Part shown: positions 860-61,354 of the stretch, one piece after another
Position numbering within the stretch: position 1 is the stretch's first letter
Layout of the letters: every line of letters begins with the position of its first letter
Source of the DNA: Blastomussa wellsi
Taxonomy: Eukaryota > Cnidaria > Anthozoa > Scleractinia > Plerogyridae
DNA length: 64,000 nt
Assembly (NCBI GenBank): GCA_947652115.1
Contig: OX393569.1
Location: forward strand, 10,401,144-10,465,143
Reading direction: 5' to 3'
Notes under the pieces: model-generated
The model's input: only the letters and a program-made list of their open reading frames with translations
Database searches by the model: none
What the model was told of the DNA's origin: nothing
Program-made: the position numbers and the translations under genes

Positions 860-1026
860 AGTAGTAGAGCCGGCATGAAACAAATACCACCTGCGTCGTG
901 CACCGATTGTCACAACTTCGCCGAAGTGGAACCAAGCTCGCCAAATGCTCGCATGGTTCCACTTCGGCGAAGTTGTGACAACGGTGCACTCCTTGGTAGT
1001 ATTTGTTTCATGCCGGCTCTACTACT
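860..1026. repeat. E1 left terminal hairpin
   Basis: This 167-bp imperfect palindrome has an outer stem of about 28 bp (AGTAGTAGAGCCGGCATGAA pairing with its complement before 1026). An asymmetric internal loop follows, with different sequences on the two strands. Then come a short GTGCACCG/CGGTGCAC stem with a bulged A, an inner stem of about 28 bp (TTGTCACAACTTCGCCGAAG and its complement), and a loop of about 19 nt. The asymmetric bubble recalls parvovirus-type telomeres in shape only; I see no sequence relation. Confidence 0.8.
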
Positions 1027-1082
1027 TGGCAGAAGAACATTGGCACGTTCAATCAATTAGACAGAAGAGGCGGAGGCCAAAA

Positions 1083-1475
1083 ATGGTTCGCGGAGAAAAC
1101 AACTGCGAGTGGTTGCTAAGAAACCGGCGCAAGAACTGCGGCAAAAAGTGCAGCGGAAAATATTGTTATCAGCAAAAATGGCAAGAGAAAAAAGGAATGC
1201 AGCAGCCGTCGCCATGTCGCAGCTGCGGAATAGGAGTAATAACAGACCACCGGTTATGTGTGAATTGCGGAGGGGACACGTTGCAAAAGCGGTTAAAACG
1301 AATAGAGAAAAAAGCCAAGAAAAATTTTGAACTTGTTTTGAGTGAGCTCCAAAAGAGACCACCGACAATGCGTGAATTGCGGAGGGGACACATGCAAAAG
1401 CGGTTAAAACGAATTGAGAAAAAAGCCAAGAAAAATTTTGAACTTGTTTTGCGTGAGCTCCAAAAAACCAATTAG
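1083..1475 (+). CDS. Small Cys-rich, Lys-rich basic protein (E1 left arm)
   Basis: The 130-residue ORF starts at MVRGENNCEWLL, the first ATG after the terminal hairpin. Cysteines sit in two clusters: NCEWLLRNRRKNCGKKCSG near residues 7-25 and PCRSCG...LCVNCGGD near residues 40-60. The spacing resembles zinc-binding modules. The C-terminal half is lysine-rich and helical (KRLKRIEKKAKKNFELVL) and occurs twice because of a tandem DNA duplication. Its role is unknown; nucleic-acid binding is an inference from the zinc-like and basic composition. In the right arm only the first 30 or so codons survive, fused to the replication gene. The pre-duplication protein may have been shorter. Confidence 0.55.
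   Translation: MVRGENNCEWLLRNRRKNCGKKCSGKYCYQQKWQEKKGMQQPSPCRSCGIGVITDHRLCVNCGGDTLQKRLKRIEKKAKKNFELVLSELQKRPPTMRELRRGHMQKRLKRIEKKAKKNFELVLRELQKTN
1260..1471 (+). repeat. Tandem duplication of about 112 bp inside the Cys-rich gene
   Basis: GTGAATTGCGGAGGGGACAC begins at 1260 and again at 1372, and both copies run through GAACTTGTTTTG. The period is not a multiple of three, so the second copy opens in another frame (MRELRRGHM versus CVNCGGDTL). A 1-bp length difference then restores the shared KRLKRIEKKAKKNFELVL reading. Confidence 0.7.
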
Positions 1476-1618
1476 AGAAAACCACCATTTAGAGAAAAGC
1501 CCCAAAAGAAAATGAACCAATTAGAGAAAAGCAACAAAAGCAAAATGGCAGAGCAAATGACGAAGCAGGAAATTGAGGAACTAGAAGAAATCTTCGAAAT
1601 GGACTTTGCGGGAATTTA

Positions 1619-1986
1619 GGAGAGCGCATTTTTTTTTTCCGCACCCAAATTTTCGGCAACTTTTTTCTTGCCACAAGCCAGACAAATACCACTTTTTTCT
1701 TGCCACAAGCCAAACTTGGAGAGCGCATTTTTTTTTTCGGCACCCAAATTTTCGGCAACTTTTTTGTTGCCACAAGCCAGACAAATACCACTTTTTTCTT
1801 GCCACAAGCCAAACTTGGAGAGCGCATTTTTTTTTCGGCACCCAAATTTTCGGCAACTTTTTTTTTCTTCCAAACGCGCATGCACACAAGAACAGCGGAT
1901 ATTTTCTCTTGGAGAGCGCATTTTTTCGGCACCCAAATTTTCGGCAACTTTATTCTTGCCACAATCCAACCACTTTTCCAGCAAGC
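1619..1986 (+). repeat. Four tandem repeats with T-tracts in the E1 leader region
   Basis: The units start with GGAGAGCGCATTTTTT at 1619, 1718, 1817 and 1911. The first two are 99 bp, the third is about 94 bp and partly diverged, and the fourth is shortened. Each carries a CGGCACCCAAATTTTCGGCA core and long T runs. The array lies between the Cys-rich ORF and the putative replication gene, where an origin or promoter would fit. An ORF runs through it by chance. The whole array is missing from the right arm. Confidence 0.75.
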
Positions 1987-4870
1987 ATGCAAAAGGTGCA
2001 AACAAAGGCGCCAGCACAAAAAACAAACAAACGGGTTGCCAAAATCCCCCAATTGAACAAATACGTTGCCGGAAGTATACAAAAAATGTCTTCGCAACCG
2101 CTAGTGAATTTCGACAACGAAACAGTGGTTGTGCAACCTTCCAATGCTTTGTTTTTCTCCGGGGCCAACGCAACACCCGCTGCAAACGACGAAGTTGCAG
2201 TGACAAACGTCGACGACGCAACAACCGCTGCAAACGACGAAGAAGAAAAACAGGACGTTGCAGCAACACCCACTGCAAACGACGAAGAAGAAAAACAGGA
2301 AGTTGCAGCAACACCCGCTGCAAACGACGTTGCAGCGACGAACGACGCGACAAGAAAAACCTTCGAAAGCATGGGACTGCGGTACGAGAAATCTGTTGCC
2401 TACCACCTGCTACTCGAAAACGCCTGGGACAGCAATCTCCTGGCCGACATCGCCAAGGTTGACTATCTGGCAGGGAACCAAGGTCGCACGAATCTGCGGC
2501 CATTGGCTGGTCTTCCGCCTTTCGTCGACGACATCTTCGTATTTGGCTATCTTTCCAGAGAGCAGTGCGTCTACAAGAGAGGAAACATCTCCTGCACCGA
2601 GGGCCCAGAAGGCGCGGCAAAAACTGTCGTGGCAAACATAGCAATAGCTTTGCAAAATGTCCTGGGGAAACGCCAGACCACAAACATCGTCCACACAGTG
2701 GGGCAAGGGAAAGCGGAAAACAGCGCAATCCGAGCCACCATCGAGAGAATCGAGAAAAACACCTGGAGCAGGGCAAAAAGCAGCTGGTTTCTGCTACACC
2801 CCGAGGAAAAGATCGCCGGCTATTTCGTAGCGAAAATCGACGTTTCCGAAGTCCATATGGAAGAGTTGCACCAGGTGCTGCCGGTTTTCGCAAATCGTCT
2901 GGTCTCCATCGACTACACACAAGACTTTTCGAGCACTTTGGATCGCAAAGCTCTTGTGGCCCACCTTGGGTTCGAAACGGCAGGGAGTTTGTCCGCCGCA
3001 ATGGGAGAAACCACCCCCCTGCTCTTGGACAACACCAACAGCGTCGGGGAGCACTGCTGCACCTGGCTCGAGACCACAGAAGAAACCACAACCACCCGAA
3101 ACAAGATCTACAACAAAGTTGTTTCGAATTTCGAGGCAGGAGAAATCCACGAGCCTGTTGGCGGGCACCTGGCAGAATACGCCAACTGCCCCAACCAGTG
3201 GCTCCGCCGAACCTTCTTCCACCCAGACGTGCAAGCCCGAGGTTGTACTCGAATCGAAACCACTATCTATGGCCTCCCACTCGACGAACTATCGAACGAG
3301 AAAGCTTCCACCTGCATCGAGAAAGTCTTGGCGCAGGTTTCTGTCCACGGCGACGAACAAGCTCTTTGTGGTCCAACCGCCCAGCAAGCAGTGACAAAAC
3401 CTCGCCGCGACCCTCGACAGGTGCCTTGTTCTCGCGGACAGACCACAAGGCCACATCTTCGTCACGTGGGGCGGCCACACAACAACAGGCCGGATCTTTG
3501 GAGTCCACGTGCGCCCCACCCAAGCGAACATCCAAGACCCAGCCAAGTGGGAAAAAGCAGTGCAGTGGGCGGCAGGGGACTTCGGCTTCCGGGGTTGCCC
3601 GATTTTCCGGGTCGACATTCTGGCCGCCGCCGACGAAGGTGTGGAGCTCGGTCCGCTCCGCTGTTTTCGGAAAGACGAAAACGCCCGCACCATCCTCGCA
3701 GCGAGCAAAAAACCGACGCAGCTCCACCCGAACGGAGGCAACCTGCCAACACTTCTGCCGCCAACAGACAAGATCGTGTGGGAATGGCGGACCAAAAAAT
3801 GCCACGCCATCGGAAACGATTCTTCGAAATACGAGCTCCAAGAAGTGCCAGAAATCGCCCAACAGCGGAAAATATCTGCGCTTTCGACAAGAAACCGAGA
3901 GAAAGTTCTCGAGGAGCTTTGCTGGGCCCGCACAGCCGAGGAGTGGAAACGAGCCCACTGGGAAAGAGAAGAAAATCGGCGCAAAAAAGAGGAAGAAAAC
4001 ACAAAGATTCGCCAAGCGGAAATAGAGACCCTTGGCGTCTATGCCGAGACAAAGGAAAAAATAGAAAGAAAAAGCCGAGGGACCCGCGCAAAAATCTTGC
4101 TCGCTCTTGCGGAGGGCACAAAAAAAGTTTCGGAGCTGGCCGCAAACAAGATATGGAAAGTTCTTGGTTTTCGCGTGAAAGAAGAGCAATATCAGGTTGT
4201 CTTGCAGGAAACAAGTTCTTCGGACTGTGTTTCTGTTTGGGCGACGAAAGGTCTGCGAAAAATCCTCCACGAATGTGCGGCCTTCTTCCGCAAGGAGGAA
4301 GACAAATTTGGTCGGAAACTTTTCTGGCTTGTGGCTTTCGACGGTGTCGGCACGCTTGGAGGGTTGGAGTTGCAAATCGAATCCCCGAAAACCTTTGTGT
4401 CCAACGAGGGCAAAACAATTGTGTGGAATCCAATACAAGTTCTCAAAGCCCCAGACCCTGGTCGACTCCCAATCTTGCGGGCTCTTGGGGCGAAATGCGA
4501 AGAATACGACAAACTTTGCGCAGATCTCGCCAAAACCAAAACCAATTTTTCCGAAGTCTCTGCGCCAGCAAACAAAGACATGAAAAAAACAACAGACCTG
4601 CTGGCAGGAGAGTACATAGCCAAACGTTTCGCAGCGACAATCTTCCGAAACTCTCCGCGGACCATTCTATTCCTGCTCTCGCTCGGCGAAGACGGGGAAC
4701 CGAAAACAGACGAAGAAACCCCAACGCACGGATACTTCCTGGAAAGAGAGATCGAGGCAATGGGAGGCCTCCACGCGTTGGAAAAAAGAAAAACCCCATT
4801 GCATTGCCGGCTTGGGGAGGAGAAAACGACACCGAGCAAGAAAAAAAGCCGCCGGGTTGCCCTGGCGTAG
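1987..4870 (+). pseudogene. Large putative replication protein of E1, left copy, frameshifted
   Basis: The likely start is MQKVQTKAPAQK at 1987; the full frame would be about 960 codons. Residues of roughly 55-120 form an acidic low-complexity repeat (variants of ANDEEEKQ.VAATP). A conserved-looking middle part follows (TIERIEKNTWSRAKSSWF, AKIDVSEVHMEELHQ, SIDYTQDF, TRNKIYNKV, ARGCTRIETT). The D-x-T-x-DF, YNK and R-x-E pattern vaguely recalls Rep_trans-type replication initiators; this is a weak inference. The C-terminal part has a charged coiled coil (REENRRKKEEENTKIRQ) and a basic tail (KKKSRRVALA). A 2-bp loss in a CT run near 3361-3366, seen against the right arm, shifts the frame, and 24 bp near 2909 is also missing, in frame. 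No Walker A motif is visible. Confidence 0.55.
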
Positions 4871-4875
4871 ACAAA

Positions 4876-5166
4876 CTATATCGCAACAACCAATCCTCCT
4901 TCGGTGCAGAAAACAAAACTGCCCCGGCAAGCAAAAACAAAAAGCTCTCCCAATCCCCAGTCCAACCATTTTTCTGCAGTCTCTGCATCGATATGTCCAA
5001 CAATGTTGGCCGGATTGTCTTCCATCGAGGTGCAGAACTTGCGAAGAGCTCTCCAATCCTTCCAGCGGACTTTGTCTTCTTGCTGCTCCCATTCTTTCTT
5101 TCGGGCGTGGAATCGGCGGAAAGGAAAATGCGGCACACAACCAGGTGGCAGAACCACAAGATCCAT
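4876..5166 (-). CDS. Small convergent ORF of E1, left copy (96 aa)
   Basis: The ORF starts MDLVVLPPGCVPHFPF and ends GLVVAI just 5 bp beyond the stop of the large gene on the other strand. The middle is charged (HARKKEWEQQEDKVRWKDW) and the last 25 residues are hydrophobic (ELFVFACRGSFVFCTEGG), so membrane association is possible. The two arms differ at only a few residues, the ORF is open in both, and it follows the coiled-coil gene in the same direction. It is not recognised as any known family. Confidence 0.5.
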   Translation of the reverse strand: MDLVVLPPGCVPHFPFRRFHARKKEWEQQEDKVRWKDWRALRKFCTSMEDNPANIVGHIDAETAEKWLDWGLGELFVFACRGSFVFCTEGGLVVAI

Positions 5167-5306
5167 TGTATATTGCATTGCATTGCAGCTATCCAATTGG
5201 ATGCACTCTAGTCCATTGGACGAATTCTTTTGTGCGAAGGCTGCTGTGGATGGTTGGGCAACTGCACATTTTCGGGTGGCGTGGCATTCCGTTGTTTCCA
5301 CTCTTC

Positions 5307-5727
5307 CTATTTCAGCCGCAGTATTGCATGCAGAAAAAAGAGGGCAGAGGCAATCCCGCCAACAATCCCAACAACCTCCACAACACCCCAAGCAGCAGAC
5401 GTTGCGGCATTGGCGGCACGCACCACCCTGTCTGTTTCTGCACGCAGGGCATTGCTGTTTTTTTCTATGCTCTCCAGGATTCCTTTGCTATTTTCTTCCA
5501 ATTCCGCTTCCAGCCCTTGCAAACCTTTCCCAATCTCCTCCACATCTTCGAAGTGGCTTTCTTGGGTCTGCAACAACAAATCCATATTTTTCTGCAGGTC
5601 CTGCACGCCGGCCAGGATCTGCGGCAGAAGAACATCCTGCCACTTTTCGGTTTCTGCGGGCTTTGCAGCCACGGTTTCTGCTGTTGCAGCCGCTGTTTCG
5701 GTTTTTCTATCGAGAACGCCTGCTTCT
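5307..5727 (-). pseudogene. HTH/coiled-coil/TM protein of E1, left copy, truncated
   Basis: The N-terminal part lies in the assembly gap. What remains begins at EAGVLDRKTE and includes the coiled coil (LPQILAGVQDLQKNMDLLLQ) and the hydrophobic segment (AAWGVVEVVGIVGGIASALF). A TAC-to-TAG change ends the frame at 5307, about 30 codons earlier than the right-arm copy. A short insertion of TVA-type residues in the Ala/Thr linker also distinguishes the two copies. Confidence 0.6.
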
Positions 5728-5927
5728 NNNNNNNNNNNNNNNNNNNNNNNNNNNNNNNNNNNNNNNNNNNNNNNNNNNNNNNNNNNNNNNNNNNNNNNNN
5801 NNNNNNNNNNNNNNNNNNNNNNNNNNNNNNNNNNNNNNNNNNNNNNNNNNNNNNNNNNNNNNNNNNNNNNNNNNNNNNNNNNNNNNNNNNNNNNNNNNNN
5901 NNNNNNNNNNNNNNNNNNNNNNNNNNN
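5728..5927. other. Assembly gap (200 N) at the centre of the E1 inverted repeat
   Basis: The gap is exactly 200 N, so it is probably a placeholder rather than a measured length. The left arm stops inside the coiled-coil gene. The right arm continues about 185 bp further inward, to about 55 bp upstream of that gene's start. The unseen sequence must contain the junction of the two arms. Confidence 0.95.
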
Positions 5928-5982
5928 AAAAACACCAATTTGGAGGCGGTGTCCCCAAAAATATCTGCAAAAAATATATGCA

Positions 5983-6618
5983 ATGCCGCCTGCAAAAGTG
6001 CTTTCCCCCGAAGAAACACGAGAAATTGTCGCGACAAGAGGCGAACTTGCACCCAGGGAGATACAAAAGAAATTCGGCATTGGCACAACAAGGCTCTACA
6101 GAATATGGAGAGAAGCAGGCGTTCTCGATAGAAAAACCGAAACAGCAGAAACCGCAGCTGCAAAGCCCGCAGAAACCGAAAAGTGGCAGGATGTTCTTCT
6201 GCCGCAGATCCTGGCCGGCGTGCAGGACCTGCAGAAAAATATGGATTTGTTGCTGGAGACCCAAGAAAGCCACTTCAAAGATGTGGAGGAGATTGGGGAA
6301 GGTTTGCAAGGACTGGAAGCGGAATTGGAAGAAAATAGCGAAGGAATCCTGGAGAGCATAGAAAAAAACAGCAATGCCCTGCGTGCAGAAACAGACAGGG
6401 TGGTGCGTGCCGCCAATGCCGCAACGTCTGCTGCTTGGGGTGTTGTGGAGGTTGTTGGGATTGTTGGCGGGATTGCCTCTGCCCTCTTTTTTCTGCATGC
6501 AATACTGCGGCCGAAATACGAAGAGTGGAAACAACGGAATGCCACGCCACCCGAAAATGTGCAGTTGCCCAGCCATCCACAGCAGCCTTCGCACAAAAGA
6601 ATTCGTCCAATGGACTAG
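5983..6618 (+). CDS. HTH/coiled-coil/transmembrane protein of E1 (211 aa, intact copy)
   Basis: The start is MPPAKVLSPEETREIV, the first ATG in this frame after the gap. Residues of about 8-42 look like a helix-turn-helix of the homeodomain-like/transposase-HTH sort (PREIQKKFGIGTTRLYRIWR). An Ala/Thr/Lys linker follows, then a long coiled coil at about 65-135 (DVEEIGEGLQGLEAELEE, SIEKNSNALRAETDRVV). A Gly-rich transmembrane segment (VVEVVGIVGGIASALFFLHA) lies near 145-170, with a polar tail ending HKRIRPMD. The mix of an apparent DNA-binding head and a membrane anchor is unusual. A role tethering the element's DNA to a membrane is only speculation. The small ORF at 6660 follows in the same direction. 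Confidence 0.65.
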   Translation: MPPAKVLSPEETREIVATRGELAPREIQKKFGIGTTRLYRIWREAGVLDRKTETAETAAAKPAETEKWQDVLLPQILAGVQDLQKNMDLLLETQESHFKDVEEIGEGLQGLEAELEENSEGILESIEKNSNALRAETDRVVRAANAATSAAWGVVEVVGIVGGIASALFFLHAILRPKYEEWKQRNATPPENVQLPSHPQQPSHKRIRPMD

Positions 6619-6659
6619 AGTGCATCCAATTGGATAGCTGCAATGCAATGCAATATACA

Positions 6660-6950
6660 ATGGATCTTGTGGTTCTGCCACCTGGTTGTGTGCCGCATTT
6701 TCCTTTCCGCCGATTCCACGCCCGAAAGAAAGAATGGGAGCAGCAAGAAGACAAAGTCCGCTGGAAGGATTGGAGAGCTCTTCGCAAGTTCTGCACCTCG
6801 ATGGAAGACAATCCAGCCAACATTGTCGGACATATCGATGCAGAGACTGCAGAAAAATGGTTGGACTGGGGATTGGGAGAGCTTTTTGTTGTTGCTTGCC
6901 GGGGCAGTTTTGTTTTCTGCACCGAAGGAGGATTGGTTGTTGCGATATAG
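6660..6950 (+). CDS. Small convergent ORF of E1, right copy (96 aa)
   Basis: It is the inverted partner of 4876-5166 and is open throughout. It starts 41 bp after the stop of the coiled-coil gene, so the two could share a transcript. Its TAG stop is 5 bp from the stop codon of the oppositely oriented large gene. It has a charged middle and a hydrophobic C-terminus (ELFVVACRGSFVFCTEGG). No family is recognised. Confidence 0.5.
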   Translation: MDLVVLPPGCVPHFPFRRFHARKKEWEQQEDKVRWKDWRALRKFCTSMEDNPANIVGHIDAETAEKWLDWGLGELFVVACRGSFVFCTEGGLVVAI

Positions 6951-6955
6951 TTTGT

Positions 6956-9319
6956 CTACGCCAGGGCAACCCGGCGGCTTTTTTTCTTGCTCTGTGTCGT
7001 TTTCTCCTCCCCAAGCCGGCAATGCAATGGGGTTTTTCTTTTTTCCAACGCGTGGAGGCCTCCCATTGCCTCGATCTCTCTTTCCAGGAAGTATCCGTGC
7101 GTTGGGGTTTCTTCGTCTGTTTTCGGTTCCCCGTCTTCGCCGAGCGAGAGCAGGAATAGAATGGTCCGCGGAGAGTTTCGGAAGATTGTTGCTGCGAAAC
7201 GTTTGGCTATGTACTCTCCTGCCAGCAGGTCTGTTGTTTTTTTCGTGTCTTTGTTTGCTGGCGCAGAGACTTCGGAAAAATTGGTTTTGGTTTTGGCGAG
7301 ATCTGCGCAAAGTTTGTCGTATTCTTCGCATTTCGCCCCAAGAGCCCGCAAGATTGGGAGTCGACCAGGGTATGCGGCTTCGAGAACTTGTATTGAATTC
7401 CACACAATTGTTTTGCCCTCGTTGGACACGAAGGTTTTCGGGGATTCGATTTGCAACTCTAACCCTCCAAGCGTGCCGACACCGTCGAAAGCCACAAGCC
7501 AGAAAAGTTTCCGACCAAATTTGTCTTCCTCCTTGCGGAAGAAGGCCGCGCATTCATGGAGGATTTTTCGCAGACCTTTCGTCGCCCAAACAGAAACACA
7601 GTCCGAAGAACTTGTTTCCTGCAAGACAACCCGATATTGCTCTTCTTTCGCGCGAAAACCAAGAACTTTGCATATCTTGTTTGCGGCCAGCTCCGAAACT
7701 TATTTTGTGCCCTCCGCAAGAGCGAGCAAGATTTTTGCGCGGGTCCCTCGGCTTTTTCTTTCTATTTTTTCCTTTGTCTCGGCATAGACGCGAAAGGTCT
7801 CTATTTCCGCTTGGCGAATCTTTGTGTTTTCTTCCTCTTTTTTGCGCAGATTTTCTTCTCTTTCCCAGTGGGCTCGTTTCCACTCCTCAGCTGTGCAGGC
7901 CCAGCAAAGCTCCTTGAGAACTTTCTCTCGGTTTCTTGTCGAAAGTGCAGATATTTTCCGCTGTTGGGCGATTTCTGGCACTTCTTGGAGCTCGTATTTC
8001 AAAGAATCGTTTCCGAAGGCGTGGCATTTTTTGGTCCGCCATTCCCACACGATTTTGTCTGTTGGCGGCAGAAGTGTTGGCAGGTTGCCTCCGTTCGGGT
8101 GGAGCTGCGTCGGTTTTTTGCTCGCTGCGAGGATGGTGCGGGCGTTTTCGTCTTTCTGAAAACAGCGGAGCGGACCGAGCTCCACCCCTTCGTCGTCTGC
8201 GGCCAGAATGTCGTCCCGGAAAATAGGGCAACACCGGAAGCCGAAGTCCCCTGCCGCCCACTGCACTGCTTTTTCCCACTTGGCTGGGTCTTGGATGTTC
8301 GCTTGGGTGGGGCACACGTGGACTCCAAAGATCCGGCCTGTTGTTGTGTGGCCGCCCCACGCGACGAAGATGTGGCCTTGTGGTCTGTCCGCAAGAACAA
8401 GGCACCTGTCGAGGGTCGCGGCGAGGTTTTGCCACTGCTTGCTGGGAGGTTGGACCACAAAGAGAGCTTGTTCGTCGCCGTGGACAGAAACCTGCGCCAA
8501 GACTTTCTTGATGCAGGTGGAAGCTTTCTCGTTCGATAGTTCGTCGAGTGGGAGGCCATAGAGAGTGGTTTTGATTCGAGTACAACCTCGGGCTTGCACG
8601 TCTGGGTGGAAGAATGAATGGCGGAGCCGCTGGTTGGGGCAGTCGGCGTATTCTGCCAGGTGCCCGCCAACAGGCTCGCGGATTTCTCCTGCCTCGAAAT
8701 TCGAAACGACTTTGTTGTAGATCTTGTTTCGGGTGGTTGTGGTTTCTTCTGTGGTCTCGAGCCAGGTGCAGCAGTGCTCCCCGACGCTGTCGGTGTTGTC
8801 CAAGAGCAGGGGGGTGGTTTCTCCCATTGCGGCGGACAAACTCCCTGCCGTTTCAAACCCAAGGTGGGCCACAAGAGCTTTGCGATCCAAAGTGCCCGAA
8901 AAGTCTTGTGTGTAGTCGATGGAGTAGATATCATAGCCGAAGCCCCCGACCAGACGATTTGCGAAAACCAGCAGCGCCTGGTGCAACTCTTCCATTGGGA
9001 CTTCGGAAACGTCGATTTTCGCTACGAAATAGCTGGCGATCTTTTCCTCGGGGTGTAGCAGAAACCAGCTGCTTTTTGCCCTGCTCCAGGTGTTTTTCTT
9101 GATTCTCTCGATGGTGGCTCGGATTGCGCTGTTTTCCGCTTTCCCTTGCCCCACTGTGTGGACGATGTTTGTGGTCTGGCATTTCCCCAGGACATTTTGC
9201 AAAGCTATTGCTATGTTTGCCACGACAGTTTGATAACAATATTTTCCGCTGCACTTTTTGCCGCAGTTCTTGCGCCGGTTTCTTAGCAACCACTCGCAGT
9301 TGTTTTCTCCGCGAACCAT
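6956..9319 (-). pseudogene. Fused remnant of the Cys-rich gene and large replication gene, E1 right copy
   Basis: The frame opens at MVRGENNCEWLL (9319) and runs about 30 codons of the Cys-rich gene to GKYCYQ. It then jumps directly into the middle of the replication gene (TVVANIAIALQNV) because about 1.45 kb is deleted, with roughly 1 bp of microhomology. The deletion leaves the two parts in frame. It keeps GGFGYDIY, which the left copy lost, and the CT run is intact here. A change that turns an AAA codon into TAA stops the frame near 7698, after LALAEGTK. The remainder (to 6956) stays open and ends SRRVALA. Conserved-looking segments (SIDYTQDFSGTLDRKAL, RNKIYNKVVSNFEAG, ARGCTRIKTTLYG) are the same as in the left copy. 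Confidence 0.6.
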
Positions 9320-9375
9320 TTTTGGCCTCCGCCTCTTCTGTCTAATTGATTGAACGTGCCAATGTTCTTCTGCCA

Positions 9376-9543
9376 AGTAGTAGAGCCGGCATGAAACAAA
9401 TACTACCAAGGAGTGCACCATTGTCACAACTTCGCCATAGTGGAACCATGTGAGCATTTGGCGAGCCTTGGTTCCACTTCGGCGAAGTTGTGACAATCGG
9501 TGCACGACGCAGGTGGTATTTGTTTCATGCCGGCTCTACTACT
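9376..9543. repeat. E1 right terminal hairpin
   Basis: This 168-bp imperfect palindrome is the inverted copy of 860-1026, with the same outer stem, asymmetric loop, inner stem and loop. The CCACCTGCGTC side of the asymmetric bubble is outermost at both ends, so the two telomeres are in the same flip/flop state. Confidence 0.8.
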
Positions 9544-9548
9544 AAACG
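9544..9548. repeat. Target-site duplication, right side of E1 (AAACG)
   Basis: It directly follows the terminal CTCTACTACT of E1 and is identical to 855-859. Confidence 0.7.
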
Positions 9549-9826
9549 GGAATTTAAATGGTTTCACATTTAGCACAATTTTCACATCTTTCCTTTGAAG
9601 AGTGTAATTCCGAACTTTGTGGCGTGTTTGGTATTCCTCAGAATGGCATTTTCTTTCATTAAATTAATTTCCTCTTCAGACACATTGACAAAACGCAAGG
9701 CGGCCATTTTGAAAATTCGTCCTCCCGCTATAATCACCTCACCGGAGGTGATTATAACAGAATATGTTGCCATTCTCAGCCAATGAAAGCGCGAGAATTT
9801 CTATAATCACCTGAGTAATTATACTA

Positions 9827-10240
9827 ATGTCTGATATTATGATAATTTGGTACATGAAATGAAAATTCAGTAAATTAAATGAAATTTAATTCCAACAAGG
9901 TCTATTTCAACATTCTTTCACATTACAGTCAACAGTTCAGAATTTTACGCTTCTGAAGCAAACATATTTCTATCAAAAACTGGCACGCTGTTATCGGGCA
10001 TACACCTTGCTGAGACCTTTCTTTGTGCTTGGTTTTTGTACATTAATGACTACACAATGTAAAATGCTTCAAAAATACGAAGGGGGATTTTTTTCAAAAC
10101 AAAGCAAAGAGAGAATTGCTAGTGTTCATTTAGGGCAAGAAATTTTTCCGTTTTGTGAAGGGTATCAGGCTGTACTATGCTGTAGTTTTGATTGAACATC
10201 CTTACTGTGCATAATCTTATGTGTGATTAGCGTGCGCATA
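9827..10240 (+). repeat. Right part of the old repeat interrupted at 498-9826
   Basis: Homology with the 51460-51800 part of the piggyBac-like element resumes here. Shared landmarks are TTGCTAGTGTTCATTTAG and CGTTTTGTGAA with small changes. Together with 180-497 it brackets the nested insertions. No gene is seen. Confidence 0.5.
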
Positions 10241-21100: not shown

Positions 21101-24100
21101 GTGCCTTAGTGGCTTAGAAGAAGACAGCCCACCACACATCGTCCCAATAGTGCACTCTGCACTAAAAATAGGTCCGCAATGCGTACTTGTGTGGGATTTC
21201 GTTGATGATTAGATGAGACGAATTGTTTTGTTTTGTTGTCATTCAGTTCCTTTTGCCGAGTAAGGTATTACAGTTATATGATTCGCCTTGTAAACTTCCA
21301 GAAATTTAAGTTGTCAAAGAAGTCAGGAAATACTAATTTGAAGGGTTGTTAATAGTAATGATTGACATTACAAGCACAAATCATTTTGTAAGAACTAAAA
21401 CTCACATTTATTTCAAATTTTCACATGTACTTCACATCTGGTTAACAATAGTCTAGATATCTGGGCTGTTAAAACAGCTAGTGTACATTTTAAACTAAAA
21501 AGAAACATGGTATTTATAAATCTTTTAACACAAAAAAATTGCCACAAGGAAAGTAACCTGCACACTCAAGCCGACAAATATTGGCTTGCGAAAGTACAAT
21601 GACTCCTTGATTATATAAAGCTGGGACAACTTGCACCAAAACGAAAGGTCCAAGGCGATAACTGTTGGCTTGTGAATAACGCCAAACAGCTCCTTTGACA
21701 AAAGAATCCTCTGTTATAAACACCTGAAGAAATAACGGAAGAAAAGTCTCAGATTAGGAAAAACGCAGGTCAAAAAACGAACGCGAACGTAATCTGCTTT
21801 CAATTAGGATATTTTGAAGCCAAAATATCACCTTACATAGGAAATTAAGACCTAGAGATACTCAAAGAAAATGTTAAAAAGGAAAGCGACTTCTACTTAC
21901 CTTCTGTACTAAAAGTAAAACGCGAAAATATTCGAAATCGGTGAAAAAACCAACAGCTGAAAGAAGAAATGGCCGCCCAGGACTCATAAACACAATAAAC
22001 TGGAACCCAGTCTTCTCACTTCGACACATCCAAACTAGAAAACACGTGACTAGCACTTCACTCTCGTATACAGATAAATAAATAAATAAATAAATAAATA
22101 TCGCTGGCGCTGACTTTGTGTGGGAGAAATCCCACACAAAAACTAAGACTTGAAAATTACTAACCAATTAGAAGAAAAAATATTAAGTGAAGTTATTACT
22201 AACATACAATAGCGGAATAAAAACTATTCACAGTAGTGGCCTGCTTAGCCTCCACTGACAGACTGTTCCACGTTAATGCGCCCCAAATTGAAAACTCTTC
22301 TTGAGGGCCTCAGTTTTCGGCCGCTGAATAAACAGGTTATGTTGGGCGCCCCGAAGATTATGTCTGTGGATGGTATTTATGCTGGTGAATTTATCAGACA
22401 GATATTCGGGTACAAGGTTATTAGCGTCTATCAGCGAGGCTTTCCAATTTGAGGGCACGAAGAATCTGGGCAGATCTGACATCCCAACCAGACCCTGTTT
22501 TGTAGTTTCTCTAGTTTTTGGTGGAGGCCATTACCGATACATCCCCACACAGCGCTGCAATAATCGAGATGTGGGAGAATCAGTGTCTTATAAATTGTAA
22601 CTAGGGTACTCTGGGGACATATCGGTCTTAGCCTCTTCAGGGTCGTTGAAGGCAAACGTGAGATTAGTGTCATCGGTGTCCATCCTCACATCTGATAAGA
22701 GGTTACAGTTTGGAAGATCATTAATGTACAATAGGAATAGCAGGGTGCCGAGGATTGAGCCATGGGGCACCCCGCAACGTATGCGACTAGTTTCAGAATT
22801 TACATTATTAATAACTGTAACCTGAGTTCTGTTAGAGAGGTAGTCTCGAAAAGACTTATACTTGCACCTTTAAACCCATACAGCTCCAACTTTGACAGAA
22901 GGATCTCATGGACAATAGTGTCAAATGCCTTTTTTAGATCTATAAACAGAATGGCATTCGTCAAACCATCGCCGATGTTAGGATACCAATTGTCTGTGAC
23001 ATCAATGAGAGCATGGGTCTAAAGCCAGACTGATATTTAGAAAGTACGTTATTCTTATTTAAATATGTATGTACCTGATTAAAAATGGCTTTTTCAAAGA
23101 GTTTGACAACAGTTAACATACTGTAGTAATTTCCAAAGTCAGTTGACATAATCCATTTTTGATCCATTTGAAGCTTTCTGTGTTCGCAAGTGCTGTTTGT
23201 CGCTTTATAACATCGATTTCCTCTTTTTCTGTGGTCGAGTGTCCTTTGGGGTTGCCTCCTCTATTTTGAACCCCCAAATGGTGTTTCGTATTTGCAAGAG
23301 AAGAGAAATATCGTCTTGAAAATTCAGGAGGATAGCCGCGTCAGACGCCATTACACTTTTTAAATTCTTCATAAAAGCAAGCCTATGATTGTACAACATT
23401 GAGTTCCTCAAAGAAAACGGTCGCTGATTGGCTACCACTAGAATATCCCGAATATCTGAACCATGGAACCAAATGGAACCAAAATTCTCAAATGCTTCCA
23501 GAATATGTCTGCTGCCTAATGGCAGCAATAGACTGCAGGCTCAAACAGGTTCCCAGTGAGGTTCGATGGGAAGGAATCAGAAGTTTGTTGATCTGGAAGT
23601 GGCTTGATTTTTGGTTGATGGTTTTTTAATGGTTATACGTCTGTATGCCGAGAAATCAAAAGAAAAATTTTTTGTTCTTCTGATGCGTGAGAAGTTTCCT
23701 GAATGGAAGGCAGAAATCGACTTCTGCAGTGACCCAAGAATAGTGTGGGACTGGATTAAGCACAAAACTCGCCAAGAAACTATTTCATATAGTAAACAAA
23801 AAGCGCGCCTGAGAAAAGACAACATGAAATTAACTGAGACCAAATTAAAGACATGCGAAGAAGCGGTAGCTGTGTCCCCAACAAGAGAGAATTTAGATAA
23901 TTTAGAAAGGCTGAAAGTAGAATATGAAAGAGAATACAGTTACATAACAATGGGCTCAATAATCCGTTCACGTGCCACGTGGTACGAAAAAGGTGAAAGA
24001 AATACCAAGTATTTTTTAAACCTTGAAAATAATAAGAAGAAAAAGAGCTCTGTAAGAAAGCTTCTTCAGTCAGATGGAAAAGAAACCACCAATCCTGACA

Positions 24101-27100
24101 AAATTGCGAAGGAAATCTATTCTTTTTATGCAAATCTCTATGCTGAAAAAACAGATGGCACTATTGACCAATCGTCTTGCCCTTTCCTAAACTCCGCCCA
24201 CATTCCTAAACTACGCTGGAAATGCGCGACACGTGTGAAGGCGAACTAACGCATGCAGAATGTTTTAATGTACTTTCTTCGTTCAAAAATAACAAATCCC
24301 CAGGAAACGACGGTCTGTCTGTGGAATTTTATAAAGCATTCTGGCCCAAAATCGGGAGGAACTTGGTCGATTCCCTAAATTTCTCCTATCATCATGGCGA
24401 ACTCTCTACTTCTCAAAAAGAAGCTGTAATAACTCTTATAGAAAAGAAAAACCGAGATAGGAGGCTGATTAAGAACTGGAGGCCAATTTCCTTAGTCAAC
24501 GTAGATGCGAAGATTGGTTCAAAGGCGATTGCTAAAAGATTGGAGAAAGTGCTCCCCCACATTATTCACTTTGATCAAAACGCATTCGTAAAGGGCCGAA
24601 CTATTTTTGACGCCGTTCGCACTATTAGTGATGTAATTGACTTCACAAGACTAAAACGCTATAGAGGTATCGTGACTGCTATTGACTTTGAAAAAGCTTT
24701 TGATTCACTTAACTGGAACTTTCTTTTTAAATCTTTGGAAACCTTTGGTTTTGGGAAATCTTTTATTGCCTGGATAAAAACATTTTACAATAATGCATCG
24801 AGTTGTGTTATGAATAACGGTTTTGCCACATCTTTTTTCCAACTTAAGCAAGGTGTTCGCCAAGGAGATCCACTCTCTCCGTTCCTTTTTATTATCGCTC
24901 TTGAGATCTTGGCAATTCACATACGCAACAACAATCAGATAAAGGGCATTACCGTCGATGGAAAAGAATTGAAGTTAACAATTTTTGCGGACGACATGAC
25001 AACGCTTGTTAGTGACAAGCCCAATTTCTTTTTCCTGATGAACAGCATAGACCAATTTGGCAGATACGCTGGTTTGAAAATGAACCATGAAAAAACTGAA
25101 ATTCTGCCATTAGGTAGCATAGTGTTACACCCTCACGAATTTGGGGTGGAAGAGATTAACAATTTTGTTAAAATCCTAGGTGTTTACTTTACAAATGATC
25201 ATGTGCTTTTTGACAAAAAAATTTTGAATCTATCGAAACATCCATCAAAGAATACTTGTTGGGTCGGGGTTGGAGTTGGAGAGGCCTAACACTAATCGGC
25301 AGAATACAAGTAATTAAATCGTTTGTTATCCCAAAAATCCTATACCGCGCAGCTTTGGTCTCTTGTAAAAAAGATTTCATTAAAAACCTCAATTCACTCC
25401 TCTACTCTTTTGTTTGGAAAGGTAAAGACAAAATAAAACGGACGGCACTGATAAATCCAATTGAGAAAGGGGGACTTAATATGCCTGATATAGAGTTAAT
25501 GATCTCTACACAAAGAATAATGTGTATTAAAAGATATTTAGATCCCTACAGTGCTGGCTGGAAATTTTTCTTAGATTCGTATCCCAAAAACATAGGAGGA
25601 AAATTTTTGTTTCACTGTAATTTTGATTTCGGGAAACTGTCTATACCTGTTCCCAATTTTTACAAGGAATGTCTTATTTTATGGTCCTCTCTGAATAAAA
25701 CCGATCCTTCCTCACTTGAAGAAGTTACCAATGAAGTCATATGGAATAACAAATATATCTGCATCGGAGGAAAATCCGTATTCAGCTCCAAAATATTGGG
25801 ACATGGCTTATACAGAGTTGGCGACCTCTATGACAATGCAGGGGAGTTGGTGATGGGAGGGGAATCTTTGAGATCGGCTCTTTCACCCACCAACTCTTCT
25901 TACTATTCAGTATATACAAGGCGCTTCCATTAAAATGGAGAAATATCTTAAACACAAACCGACGCCTTATACCTCTTCACTCACACCAATTAAACTTAAC
26001 CACCTTTTTTATTTACATAAACAATGAAGAAATCAATGTAGAGAAAATGTGATCAAAATCTCTGTATGGCAGCCTAATCTCTAATGTAGCAAATGCACCT
26101 ACCGCCTTGAAGAAATACGAAGATCTCTTCAATACCGAGTCTTTTCAGTTAAATTGGAAAGACATCTTTCTATTACCACTAAAGGTAACGTTGAGTACTA
26201 AATTGCGTGAATTCCAATACAAAATATTAAATAGGATTCTCTACACAAACAACATGCTTCACAAGTTCAAAAAAGCTGACTCTCCCTTATGCTACCTATG
26301 TAAAACGGAAATAGAAACTCTAGAACACTTCTTTTTCTACTGCTTGCACGTAAATACGTACTGGAAAGAAGTAGTTAATTTGTTCAGAGACCAACTAAAG
26401 ATCTCTAAGGACTTTGAAATCACAGATGTTATTTTCGGACTCAATAATAAAGAAATTTACAACCACTTAATTAACTATATCATCCTTGAAGGCAAATACC
26501 TCCTTTATCTCTTTAAATTAAATGACAGGTTCTTATCTCCACGACTGCTACTAGAGAGAATCAAGAGTACCTACAAATTAGAACACTTCATTGCGAGAGA
26601 GAGAAATAATCTTAACTATCATTACACGAAGTGAGAGCCTCTGCTTCCCCTTGTTTCATCTTAGTTTGAAGTTTTTCTAAATGTATTTTGTGTCACTTTC
26701 CCTTTTGTGACAGGTAAACAAAAACCTGTAAGGGCAACTGTTTGGAGGTGGTTTTTTTTATTTATTTCTTTTCTTTTTATTTATTTATTTATGTATTTAT
26801 TTCTAGTGTATTGTATTGTATTGTATTATAAAATGTAAATAGGCATTGTAATGATAAGTATTGTAAGTGTTGCTTGATAAGTAAGTTGTAAGTAGTAACT
26901 TGTAAGTTGTTAGCAGTCATGTAATTTGTTGTAAGTAATTGAACTGTAGTCTTGGTCAAAAAATCTTAATAAATAAAAAAAACAAGGGTTTTTACCCTAA
27001 AAAAAAAAAGAAAAATTTTGTTTCAAAAAATTCAGTCATGGCTCATCACAGAGCTCTTTGTTTAGATATGGAGCCAGCCCAAATAAGCTCCTTGAGCTTC

Positions 27101-39500: not shown

Positions 39501-42500
39501 AACACCCAATAAAGCTGTAAAAATAAATATTAAATGAATAAAATTTCTCCAGCATACACAAATCAGTAATCCTGAGAAAAAATTATATTTCCAAGTTCAC
39601 CTCCAGGGAGATACAGTGAGTCCCATTAATGAGCTGAAAATTCACCATTTTCAATCCATTTGTCTTTTGAACTTGTTTGGTGCAGAAAGGTTTAAATTCT
39701 TCCAAATTATTATATGACTATTCCTTATCCAAACAATCATACATTTTATAAGTAATTAATAGTTATCTTTAATGGTACAAAAAAAAAACAAGCAAGAGTA
39801 TCCTAAGCAAGATTGACGAAAGCACTGAGTATCATTTTGAGAAAGCCTACAATGGGAATTGGCTTGCTTTTACTTTATTTCATTTCCATACTCAACGTTA
39901 GATTTTGCCTAACCAAATGGAGCCCATCAAACATTTCTGTAAAGTTATAAAAGTGAGTAAGATACTATTGGTGACAACAAATAAAGTTGGTTACCAAGAG
40001 CTGGCCATGAATCCCTGGTTTCCAGTCCATTTGGTTGTTTAGATTTGCCCCATACAAGGTTACCTATTTTAAGCCCAGCAGCAGCCAGGGCACTGTTGCT
40101 TGGGTCAGCTGTTATGTCAGGACTTCCTGTTTGAGATTTGCTTTTTGAATTTTTCTTGATGCGATGCAGCCATGGGTCTAAAAAAAGAATAATTATATAA
40201 ATTTTTATATTAGGAAGGGTGGAAACCCTGTTAACATTAATCTGGAGAAAACCTTAAGGGCACTTTTTTAACTGCAAGGGGGCACCTTTGCAATGTTTAG
40301 GGATGTTTGGCTTATGTTTGCTTGCCAGCTGGTGATTTTGACAATGGCTAAAACCAAAATTATTTATTCTTCGCACAAATTTAACCCATTGACGCCTGGA
40401 GATTTTTGAAAAATAAAACACATTTTAAGACATTTTGGACATTTTCTAGTCAGGTAGGTTAAATCTGCTTCAAATCTCTCCAAAATGCATTTGCAAAATA
40501 AAGACATGCCAGGTTTTTCACTAGCATTCCATTTAACAACATTTTAGCTCGTGCATGCACGCAAAATCACCTCTTTAGGCTTCTCGACTTCTTTATTTTT
40601 TCCACTTTTCCTTTCTCCTTTTCTTGTATCTTTTTATGCATTTGTTGGCCTTTTACAGGGCTTGCTTTCGGTTCAATAATTGCCACGAAAGCATCAACAA
40701 GACGGGAAATACATAACATGGAGTAGCCAAGGGTAAGTAAGGGAAATTTTCCTCCTAGTTTTTGACGGCAATTTCTAAGCATTTTCATGCATATTTCAAG
40801 CCCCATTAGCCTAATCAATATCATCTGGGTATCAATGGAAAGCTCTTTCCCTCGGGTAAACGGGATTCCTATTTTGGTCAAAGCTGATGACCTCAAAAGC
40901 GAAACAAAGGTCAAGGACTGAAACGGCCGGTTTTAAGTCAATGGGTTAAAAATGGTGTACAGTGGATTTCTGTTTGACTCAGTCTAACTGAAACCAGACT
41001 TGCAAGGATTAAATTAAGATCAACTTAGAACTGTCAGTCTTGTACTTTAGTGTCCTGAATATCAGCCCAATAACTGTAGTTTTCAAAATGAAAATCCTGC
41101 TTGCTCTGAACTTCTGTAAGTTCTAATTCCAAGGACATATTTAACTCATAATTATTTGGAATCAAATGGCAGGAGGCAATGACGTCAAGTTTCTTATCCC
41201 TGAACTATGTAGCATTTTTTCTTACCTTGGTAAATCACACGTGCACGTGTAACCATTGGTTAACGTGGTAAACTAAAACCCAAGTGTGATGTACCATGGG
41301 GTGTGTAAACACACCTTATAATAATTATGTCAGATCGGTGCTACCTTTCACATCCCTTTCACACAAATTGAGTTTACCAAACCCATGAAATAGTTGCTAT
41401 AGTATTAGATAATATAAAACACTAATTTCATTGTTTTCTTTTGTTTATTCGTTTCACACAGGGATATTAACTGTCCATAGTTCATAAGCATTTCTGGTGA
41501 AATCATGCACCATTAATTACACTATAAAGCAGAACTAATTAGAATTATCAGTTGTTGAGAATGTTCGCCAAGAAACATTGAAAGGCCCACCTACATGTAA
41601 GAATCCCTGCCTGCTGCTCTTTGCTCTCTTGGAAAACCCTCATGAGTTTTGCTAGTCAGGGGTCACTACTCAACACATACATGTAATGCAGAGTTATGGT
41701 TGGAAACAATATGTGAAGTAAGAAGAATGGGTTGAAAAATTGACATTTTTATATTACTATGGTTTATGGCAGGACTCTGCCCCAAAGCATTTGGAACACA
41801 AATTGTGCATTGAGACCTTGTCCTGGATGCCCTAACTTTTAAGTGACAAAATATAGTAAAATATAACCTTCATCTTCTGATCCTGACATTTTAAAAGGAT
41901 TGAAATCATCTTCATCTTCCGCAGCTGAACTGTTACCAGACTCGGCAGCCTCACCCTTGCCACTTTGTTTGCTAACGTTGAGAAAGTCACTCTCAGCATT
42001 ATCCTTCTCACTGTTGCCAGAGTCACTGTCTGAGCCACTACTCACTGAATGAAATAAATACCATCAAACTATAAGCACAGCTTCTGTGTACCAGCTATGA
42101 AGAGCAATAACACAAAACAACACAGCAAAAGCTAGATTCTGCAAAAAACCTACAGTTATAGATCCTCTCAAGTGCAGTCTTGACTTTCTTGGGATTTGGA
42201 GCATTGAAAGCTGGAAAATATCATGAGAATACAGAAATGTTATCAAACAACAGAATTGGAGAACTGTATGTATTTTATGGTACATATAATTATGGTGTGA
42301 GATTCCCATTGGTTGCTGAGAAAATCTATTTAAAACTTGGCTAACAGACTTTTTGCCAATCTTCATCATGTATTAGAATATAGCCTGGTATGTTCGCCAC
42401 GGAATCTCAGTGGGCTTTATTTTTAATAGAACATGGGGAAAAACTATAGAAGCCCGGTACCCCGGATGTAGTTTATGTTGCGTTGCGAATTGAAAAAACG

Positions 42501-45500
42501 ATGGCGGTGACTATCTTTTAAAGTTGTCTTTTTATTTCCTTTATTATGGCTGCTAAAACAACTATCGATGAAATAAGTTCAGGTGTCTAGGGAGACGAAA
42601 ATGTGGACGAGCTATCGAGCAGCGAGTCCTAGAAATGCGAACAAGGAGGCCACCCACGCGCGTACATTCAGTGATTTTTAGGTTTTTTAATTCTATATTC
42701 TAAACCAGCTAGAAGATAGGTTTTCCCGATGAAAACAATGCCCTTTTGAGGTCTAGAAAAGCAGTTGAATGCCCTTGCCTAACGGCTCGGGCATCCACTA
42801 GCAGCTTTTCTAGACTTCAAGCGGGCATTATTTTCTTATAGAACATGGATACCTATCTTCTAGTAGGTAAATAACGTGTAAGAGAAAAAGAATTTGAAAT
42901 ACCACAGAAGCCTCAAACACTTCAATAACCAAGGAACATTTCAGAACATTTTTGTAAAAATCCATCAAAATATTTGTATCCTATTAATTCCCTTGAAGCA
43001 AAGTCATCAAAGTGGATGTTAATGCAGCTATGGTGACAACCAACAAAATTCAAGTTTGGGACCTGAAAGACTTCACCAAAATAGTCCACTAATTTGAGGA
43101 AATATTTATTTCGCACTCAGATAATAGTCAAATTGATTTTGATTCTGATTTCCATAGCATTTGATTTTTTAAAAAATAATATCAGGGTGATGCGGGGCAT
43201 CACCCTGACATTATGTTCTCACACTGATTAACTGTTGTCTGACCTTGCTGCCTCCTCTTTTTGGGGGTATCTTGTCCTAGTGCAGGTGATGATCTATCAG
43301 CCTGTTTGTCACAAGCATAACTTTCAATACCAAACAGATCAGCCACTCTTCTTCTATCTGCTGCTGGGAACTGCTTTTCAACTAAGGCTTGTAACACTCC
43401 TCTAGAACAGAAAAATGTGCAGTGAGAAAAGCTGCCCTAGCCTCTTGCACATGTTTTTAGATAGTCCGGTGCCTTAGCTCTCTACTTGTGCAATTTTTTA
43501 TACAAGCACCAAATTTTGCTTGAATAGAAACATTCCCATACTGGTCATTTCAGTGCCAAGTCAAATTTTCCAATTCCAGATAGTTAGCGGTAAATGGCTC
43601 CCCGCAAAAAAACCTCTTTCATTTTTACAATTTAAAGCATGTATTATTTCGAAATAAAAATATATGTTTAGGCCATTTCTCTTTGTAATAACCTTACTGT
43701 CAACTGATTTTCTAACTTCAAACTATCTTTTATATCAAGGAAATTAAGTTTTACAGTCCACTAACTTAGATGGATCCAATATAGTGACTATTTCAATATT
43801 TAAGATGTCATATAAAATTATGAAGTCAATGATATTGCTCATGACAACCAAAGTCTTGAAAGTAAAAAGAATCTTTCCAGGCAAATTGCTAAGGGTTTGT
43901 AGTTATTTGTTAAAATAATTGTCAAGGATAACCAGATGATATTGATTGGGCTATTGGAACTTGAAATATGCATGAAAACACTTAGAAATTTCAGTCAAAA
44001 ACTAGGAGGAAAATTTCCATCACTTACCCTTGGCAATTCTTGGCAACTCTTGAACCAAAAGCTAGCCCAGTAAAAGGCCAACAAAAGCATAAATCTCGAA
44101 ATTTTGACTTGTGCGCACCGCCTAGCTAAAATGGCATTAAATGCAATGCTAGTAAAAAACCTGACCTGTCTTTATGTTGGAAATGCATTTTGGAGATATT
44201 TGAAGCAGATTTAGCCACACGCATGGACGGTGAGGGTTCTGTGACCACCAGGAAACAAAAACCTCGGAGCCCTTCAGGACCTCGGTTTTTGTTTCCTGGT
44301 GTTCACAGAACTCTCACCATCCATGTGCGTTGGGAAGCAATAATAATAATGCAAACAGCCTTAAAGAAGATCTCATCATATGTGTTGGGAAGCAATAATA
44401 TAACGCAACAGCCTTCACAAAGATCTAACATGTGTGAGGAGAGCAAAAATATAACGCAAACAGCCAAAACGAAACGCCTGACTTCACGTTCCAGTGAAGA
44501 TGCAATCTATATGCATGATTTGTGGTCCAGTGGTATAAAAACGGATGTGTGTCATAGAAAATTTTCCATGGATGACGGATGGCCACGGGCAACAAACACA
44601 TCAAAAATTTCCAAGTTAATTCAAAAGTTGATTCAAAAGTTAATATTGCCACAAAACAGAGGCAGCGATTTGATCTTGGCTGGAAGAAACTGCATTGGGA
44701 GCTGAAGAGGATACCTTTGGAGCTTCAGCAGTTGATTCTCAAGAAATATATTGCCACAGCAATGAAGCAGCGAGAAGATCACGACTGGGACGATGTACTT
44801 TATGAACTGGATAAGGTGCCTTTTTGCCAAAAACTTGGACGAATTACGAAAACAATTTGTTGCAGAAAATGTGGCAATTGCAAGAGAAATAGCTTATGCA
44901 CCACTTGTTTCGAAATGGGAAAGTATCACTACATTGACCCATGTTACTGGCTACAAGAAACATTTATAATGTATGCGAGAGAGGAAGCCACCTTCTTGTT
45001 TTGAATTCTGCGAAGCGTAAACGTTGCGCGACCTCTTTCTAGGAAACCTTGAAGCCAATGTTTTTGTCCTCAGACCACCCAAGACAGGAAGGAAAAAATA
45101 TGGCGACAGAGTCAGCATTTTTGTGTTTGGCAAGAAAATGGCCAGAATTCACAGAAAATTTACACTCAGTTTACAAACTGTAAGTTTTTTTCTGCCACAG
45201 AACCAAGTGGCACGATGCGAAAAGGAGGAAGCGAGAAAATAACAAGATTTACTCAAAGCAAAAGATCGATCCCAGCTGCCATAAGGCCAAGAACAAGCAG
45301 CTAATCCTGGCTAGTCTCAGCATTTCCTGCCTCTTGCAAAGCCTCCAAGACTTCACGTGTTATTTGTCTTACATCCTTTTGCCAAACGGGTGTGAAAAGT
45401 TCGGCGAGAATACAGCAAATCGCATGGAACAAAACAAGCATTTTGCCCTTCTCAAGCTGTTTATATGTGAGTTGTAATTTTTTATTCAGCCAGTTTTTAA

Positions 45501-61335: not shown

Positions 61336-61354
61336 ATAGTTAGTTAGTTAGTTA
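61336..61354 (-). repeat. (CTAA)n tail of the RTE-like LINE
   Basis: On the minus strand the ORF's TAA stop is the first unit of a CTAACTAACTAACTA run. Microsatellite tails with almost no 3' UTR are typical of RTE-clade elements. Confidence 0.75.

Follow-up and report, generated by a model that had tools for sequence, protein, structure and literature searches.

A palindromic, hairpin-ended element in a Blastomussa wellsi contig, read as an inserted head-to-head dimer with a predicted Rep_trans-type initiator

We analysed a 64,000-nucleotide stretch of Blastomussa wellsi contig OX393569.1 (positions 10,401,144 to 10,465,143), here called the window, to which all coordinates below refer. It contains an element, designated E1, that occupies positions 860-9543 (8,684 bases) and consists of two inverted arms, arm 1 at 860-5727 and arm 2 at 5928-9543. 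As a first-pass annotation of the sequence had described, there is a hairpin at each outer end, a 5-bp direct repeat around the whole block, and a gap at the centre, which consists of exactly 200 N and is the only run of N in the window. The G+C content of E1 is 51.0%, compared to 36.0% in the left flank and 38.5% in the next 10 kb on the right. From left to right, the features of E1 and its borders are as follows (ORF, open reading frame; TIR, terminal inverted repeat; HTH, helix-turn-helix; TM, transmembrane).

603-859, no strand: likely the left part of a repeat that E1 interrupts, TIR at 603-640 (repeat and core searches)
855-859, no strand: left flanking direct repeat AAACG, a likely target-site duplication (read from the sequence)
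860-1026, plus strand: left outer hairpin (folding)
1083-1475, plus strand: Cys-rich ORF of arm 1, zinc binding predicted by eye, no family above cut-off
1171-2620, plus strand: arm 1 segment absent from arm 2, edges uncertain by 1-2 bases (arm alignment)
1619-1968, plus strand: tandem repeats of about 99 bp (families D1 and D2) between the Cys-rich and large genes (repeat search)
2086-3360, plus strand: first open part of the arm 1 large gene, with the predicted Rep_trans-type domain (frame free of stops from 1987; homolog P0003 used to infer the start)
3395-4870, plus strand: second open part of the arm 1 large gene, preceded by an in-frame stop at 3392-3394; in relatives this part forms the long helix and the C-terminal domains
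4876-5178, minus strand: 100-aa ORF of arm 1, convergent (ORF list, arm comparison)
5208-5727, minus strand: HTH-coiled coil-TM gene of arm 1, truncated by the gap, stop near 5309 (arm comparison)
5728-5927, no strand: central gap
5983-6618, plus strand: arm 2 copy of the HTH-coiled coil-TM gene, 211 aa, with these features by prediction (27 homologs)
6648-6950, plus strand: 100-aa ORF of arm 2 (ORF list)
6962-7699, minus strand: second open part of the arm 2 large gene, preceded by a stop at 7700-7702 (arm comparison)
7703-9319, minus strand: first open part of the arm 2 large gene (539 aa), joined to what is left of the Cys-rich gene, its start (arm comparison, homologs)
9376-9543, plus strand: right outer hairpin, a mirror image of the left one (folding)
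9544-9548, no strand: right flanking direct repeat AAACG (read from the sequence)
9549-9827, no strand: likely right half of the interrupted repeat, with a TIR at 9790-9827 (repeat and core searches)

In a single alignment, the two arms were found to be 97.8% identical over 3,406 paired bases (76 mismatches), with five long complementary blocks of 97-100%. The earlier description of two arms with the same gene set needs one correction, because arm 2 lacks the 1,450 bases that correspond to 1171-2620 of arm 1; this loss fused the start of the Cys-rich ORF to the large gene and removed the rest of that ORF from arm 2. Compared with arm 2, arm 1 is missing 24 bases in one place and 2 in another, and further differences of 12 bases and 1 base separate the arms.

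The AAACG repeat is likely a target-site duplication of the kind by which cut-and-paste transposons are recognised, and it suggests insertion at a staggered cut; two random 5-mers drawn from positions 9600-63990 agree by chance at a rate of 0.0015. Beyond it lies a 38-bp inverted repeat (603-640 and 9790-9827, 95%), the 23-base core of which has no other copy in the window when up to 3 mismatches are allowed. Therefore, E1 seems to have split one repeat of about 536 bp, which adds support for a single insertion. The same borders bear on the possibility that E1 is an assembly artefact, in which separate loci were scaffolded over an arbitrary gap. The gap is indeed exactly 200 N long and lies at the centre of the palindrome, but this explanation is very improbable, because the flanks carry the same 5-bp repeat and the complementary ends of one repeat.

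Terminal hairpin telomeres, as in Parvoviridae, are present at both outer ends of E1. The left hairpin folds at -82.4 kcal/mol (z -21.3) and the right hairpin at -74.8 kcal/mol (z -19.3), and in each case none of 200 shuffled sequences folded as well. Both are 167-168 nt long and lie in the same orientation; in each, an asymmetric internal loop separates an outer stem of some 32 bp from an inner stem.

From the outer end inwards, the gene order is the Cys-rich ORF, the large gene and then, on the opposite strand, the 100-aa ORF and the HTH-coiled coil-TM (HTH-TM) gene. The large gene is broken in both arms. Arm 1 has stops and the two short deletions, and the first piece of its large gene, from which 24 bases are missing internally, loses its frame near 3361; arm 2 has a stop of its own. 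The HTH-TM product is predicted to have an HTH, a coiled coil and a single membrane segment. Eight of the contig sizes of its 27 homologs are in common with those of homologs of the large protein, and we infer from these sizes that the gene set likely travels together elsewhere. Two HTH-TM homologs each were found at a contig size of 2,614,759 bases (P0129 and P0134) and at one of 153,662 bases (P0135 and P0139); these pairs are possible second dimers or multiple insertions.

The differences between the arms were compared with those expected from random change in the same codons, assuming a 2:1 ratio of transitions to transversions. Of the 777 codons of the large gene that could be compared, 55 differ: 15 are silent, 38 are replacements and 2 are stops, relative to expected values of 15.7, 37.3 and 2.0, respectively. 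The HTH-TM gene gave 2 silent, 7 replacement and 1 stop change in 169 codons (expected 2.8, 6.8 and 0.4), and the 100-aa ORF 2, 1 and 0 in 101 codons (expected 0.8, 2.0 and 0.2). When the 38 replacements in the large gene were polarised against nine close relatives, with 18 artefact rows left out of the count, arm 1 was derived at 11 sites and arm 2 at 17; at 6 sites both residues, and at 4 neither, occurred among the relatives. The match to neutral decay indicates that the arms are one sequence that was doubled at or near insertion and then decayed in both copies, and that E1 is not a meeting of two copies each long kept by selection. This neutral divergence is the strongest evidence that E1 is a dimer.

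Near-identical, neutrally decayed arms do not date the duplication relative to the insertion, and so they would also fit a monomer that inserted first and was later duplicated in inverted orientation by a host event (palindromic amplification). Such a duplication would have to end exactly at the outer hairpins, where E1 stops, with AAACG and the likely halves of the 38-bp-TIR repeat directly outside, and we regard this course of events as quite improbable.

Alternatively, the palindrome as a whole might be the unit that naturally moves, in the manner of a fold-back or long-TIR DNA transposon whose inverted repeats make up nearly the full element. A clean 5-bp duplication around the whole block is what cut-and-paste insertion typically leaves. 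The inner junction of E1 is unread (N), and homolog P0036 lies on a contig of 8,682 bases compared to 8,684 for E1, a weak agreement since E1 has a deletion and a gap of unmeasured length. However, no transposase was recognised with confidence among Pfam and PHROGs families for the E1 pieces or among NCBIfam families for eight homologs, and a lone DDE_Tnp_4 match (9.5e-4) occurred in only 1 of 47 homologs of the large protein. Furthermore, each of the arms represents the complete set of genes, one of them for an initiator-like protein, and a second element of the same window, E2, is a monomer with a hairpin inverted terminal repeat (ITR) at both ends. Therefore, we consider the long-TIR transposon rather unlikely.

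E2 (44217-48421) is degraded, with ITRs of about 152 bp. It has one Cys-rich and one large ORF, and small ORFs of membrane-like character lie on both of its strands. The flanks of E2 have counterparts on the opposite strand that form a paralogous empty site, that of the left flank (40582-40457) directly adjoining that of the right flank (40456-40364), which indicates that a monomer with hairpin ends was inserted at this place. The first-pass annotation had likened one arm of E1 to E2; this stands for the layout, given the ITRs and the empty site, but no kinship was found. The Cys-rich products of E1 and E2 did not match each other, nor did the profiles of the two large-protein families (hhalign probability 0.1), and no contig size was in common between the 120 listed homologs of each. 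The family of the E2 large ORF had no known domain in the members tested; a 178-aa piece gave 222 homologs, and the single named one among the 120 listed comes from the coral Oculina patagonica. The repeat interrupted by E2 (43900-44216 and 48422-48520) has a second copy in inverted order at 40364-40582, and TTAGCCA occurs at both E2 junctions. Just past E2, at 48633-48817, is a palindrome, its 76-bp arms (88%) separated by a loop of 33 bases, that resembles a miniature inverted-repeat transposable element.

Taken together, the same hairpin at both outer ends, the single pair of flanking repeats, and arms that differ as neutrally decaying copies make a dimeric replicative form the best-supported and likely reading of E1. 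The earlier proposal that such a form had been inserted is upheld to this extent, and its overall interpretation in part: E1 is probably a decayed hairpin-ended element, inserted whole as a head-to-head dimeric replicative form, with a large protein predicted to be of the Rep_trans type.

The assignment of the large protein was based on its relatives. A database search with the 539-aa piece of arm 2 scored 7,998 candidates, of which 173 were homologs at E≤0.01, up to 74% identical; homologs P0051 and P0027 lie on contigs of 4,362 and 4,599 bases, respectively. Among the 120 listed, 45 were on contigs of at least 100 kb and 58 on contigs of at most 10 kb, and none had a precomputed Pfam domain. 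The named homologs are from the sea slug Elysia crispata (two proteins), the sea anemone Actinostola, and a metagenome-assembled genome of the clam symbiont Candidatus Thiodiazotropha endolucinida, in which the homolog lies on a 2,023-base contig that is perhaps host DNA. No relative was found in the phage records searched. The large-protein pieces of E1 and the homologs tested had no confident Pfam, PHROG, NCBIfam or PDB sequence family (NCBIfam for eight homologs), and the E1 pieces as a whole had no confident Pfam or PHROGs family, a TnpV match at 0.0083 being under its cut-off. There was no Pfam capsid match on the E1 pieces searched, and Phage_capsid_3 appeared at an E value of 0.17 in 1 of the 47 aligned relatives (789-943 residues).

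A kinship with parvoviruses, implied in the first-pass annotation, is not supported at the protein level. A conserved His-U-His (HUH) motif was not found, there being no His column in at least 45 of the 47 relatives; a His-U-His triple was present at one common column in 7 of them and anywhere in 11. The Walker A motif GxxxxGK[ST] of a superfamily 3 (SF3) helicase occurred in 1 of 47. By its protein, E1 is therefore not a parvovirus, a CRESS (circular Rep-encoding single-stranded DNA) virus or a Helitron. That E1 is a degraded parvovirus or bidnavirus integration, as the hairpin ends, the length of about 5 kb per arm and the head-to-head dimer might suggest, is strongly contradicted by these results and by the absence of any confident parvoviral, family B DNA polymerase (PolB) or capsid Pfam match, and we consider it extremely improbable.

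Instead, prediction makes the large protein a nicking endonuclease of the Rep_trans type, with a TATA-binding protein (TBP)-like saddle. The predicted structure has the N' Asp, motif I Asp, motif III Y-x-K, motif IV R-x-E and strand order of the Rep_trans catalytic pattern, with the exceptions that the motif I Arg and the motif III Glu are not kept and that K298 lies just beyond its strand. The strand of the published N' Asp (D46) was taken as strand 1 from its position in the chain. In the site described by Carr et al., the Tyr is about 5 Å away from where the metal sits. In the numbering of homolog P0003, Tyr296 would attack the DNA, Asp93 or Asp94, Asp230 and Glu345 would hold the metal, and Lys294 and Lys298 would assist, whereas the long helix (555-629) and the C-terminal, possibly oligonucleotide-binding (OB)-like, domains may serve in single-stranded DNA binding or protein assembly. 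In arm 2, the position of the predicted metal-ligand Glu is occupied by Lys.

In both structural comparisons, TBP chains ranked above Rep_trans chains, and there was no sequence match to PF02486 (Rep_trans) among the 25 of 29 families listed for the 47 members at E≤1 or for 8 members at E≤10. These results speak for a TBP-like DNA-binding protein without nuclease activity, with the hairpin ends processed by a host enzyme. However, the residues of a metal-dependent Tyr transesterase are kept in 46-47 of the 47 relatives, and the predicted strands and their order match, so that this explanation is unlikely. The predicted Rep_trans-type initiator, in place of parvoviral kinship, would be a more surprising result than the dimer itself. 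The enzyme type predicted for E1 has so far been reported solely from bacteria, with a cousin in archaea, and no description of a eukaryotic Rep_trans-type initiator was found in the available portions of the literature surveyed, including PMC4797284, PMC5714925, PMC13107129 and PMC6668415.

A hairpin end together with a predicted non-HUH Tyr-nickase suggests rolling-hairpin replication with another engine. As we infer the mode of replication and the origin of the dimer, the monomer would be about 5 kb long and comprise a hairpin, the Cys-rich gene, the large gene (Rep), the convergent 100-aa and HTH-TM genes, and an inner hairpin telomere, predicted to sit in the gap. Rep would nick at the inner side of the hairpin, with the 5' end staying held by the protein, and a host polymerase would extend the 3' end, refolding of the hairpin re-priming the copying as in rolling-hairpin replication; the helicase as well as the polymerase would be supplied by the host. 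Schemes of this type, as established for parvoviruses, normally pass through dimers in which an inner telomere has yet to be resolved. An inner telomere left unresolved would here give a dimer joined by its right ends, the form seen in E1, in which the Rep-side ends lie outside and the HTH-TM-side ends face the gap.

More tentatively, and with nearly even chances, a class of hairpin-ended replicators in marine animals (cnidarians and molluscs) uses the rolling-hairpin mode by means of a Rep_trans-type endonuclease, so that this mode would have arisen twice, from nickases that are unrelated, and E1 would be a fossil dimeric intermediate. If true, there would be another lineage of Tyr-nickase replicons in animals beside the HUH-based CRESS viruses and parvoviruses and the Helitrons, and hairpin telomeres with an unrelated initiator would be a convergence that a single protein and a single oligonucleotide suffice to test in the laboratory. 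A mechanism would also be predicted for a family of at least 173 proteins, and hairpin-ended elements could enter chromosomes as dimers. E2-type elements may be capsid or partner segments of E1-type replicators.

Elsewhere in the window, an inverted repeat of about 1 kb (51225-52266 and 58737-59780, 81-88% complementary, about 6.5 kb apart) is probably another TIR element, and ORFs at 23629-25933 and 61352-63862 resemble, by eye, reverse transcriptases of non-LTR (long terminal repeat) retrotransposons, typical of an animal genome. Such LINE-like ORFs and the names of the homologs suggest a cnidarian or a similar animal as the host.

In Parvoviridae, head-to-head dimers are replicative forms, and E1 resembles these viruses in its terminal hairpins, its unit of about 5 kb and its head-to-head dimer. 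The rolling-hairpin mechanism and the HUH Rep of Parvoviridae are described in PMC5714925 and PMC6668415. E1 differs in having no conserved HUH, no SF3 Walker A motif and no recognised capsid gene, in the other predicted fold of its initiator, and in its flanking 5-bp duplication. Bidnaviridae, Polinton-Maverick elements and Helitrons are eukaryotic mobile DNAs, some of which have terminal repeats or rolling-circle initiators; in contrast, no PolB, integrase, HUH or helicase was recognised in the E1 pieces, and neither HUH nor Walker A is conserved in the 47 relatives.

The family of Rep_trans (PF02486), which comprises the pT181-family Rep, RepSTK1 and MOBT relaxases, differs from the E1 family in that the latter has no Pfam sequence match, is 789-943 aa long with a long helix and extra C-terminal domains, has relatives in animals, belongs to a linear hairpin-ended rather than a circular replicon, and lacks the motif I Arg. 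The likeness lies in the predicted TBP-like saddle and strand order and in the Asp/Asp/Glu and K-x-Y-x-K / R-x-E residues. Rep-Arvir, the initiators of archaeal viruses and plasmids (DUF7845, PF25227), are, according to their 2026 description (PMC13107129), archaeal and carry a C-terminal MarR-like winged HTH (wHTH). In the E1 family, PF25227 was absent from the 25 of 29 families listed for the 47 members and from the 8-member search, a wHTH not having been sought by structure alone. The E1 family is like Rep-Arvir in that it is predicted to be a distant Rep_trans-like initiator with a TBP fold, recognised by structure and acting at a hairpin origin.

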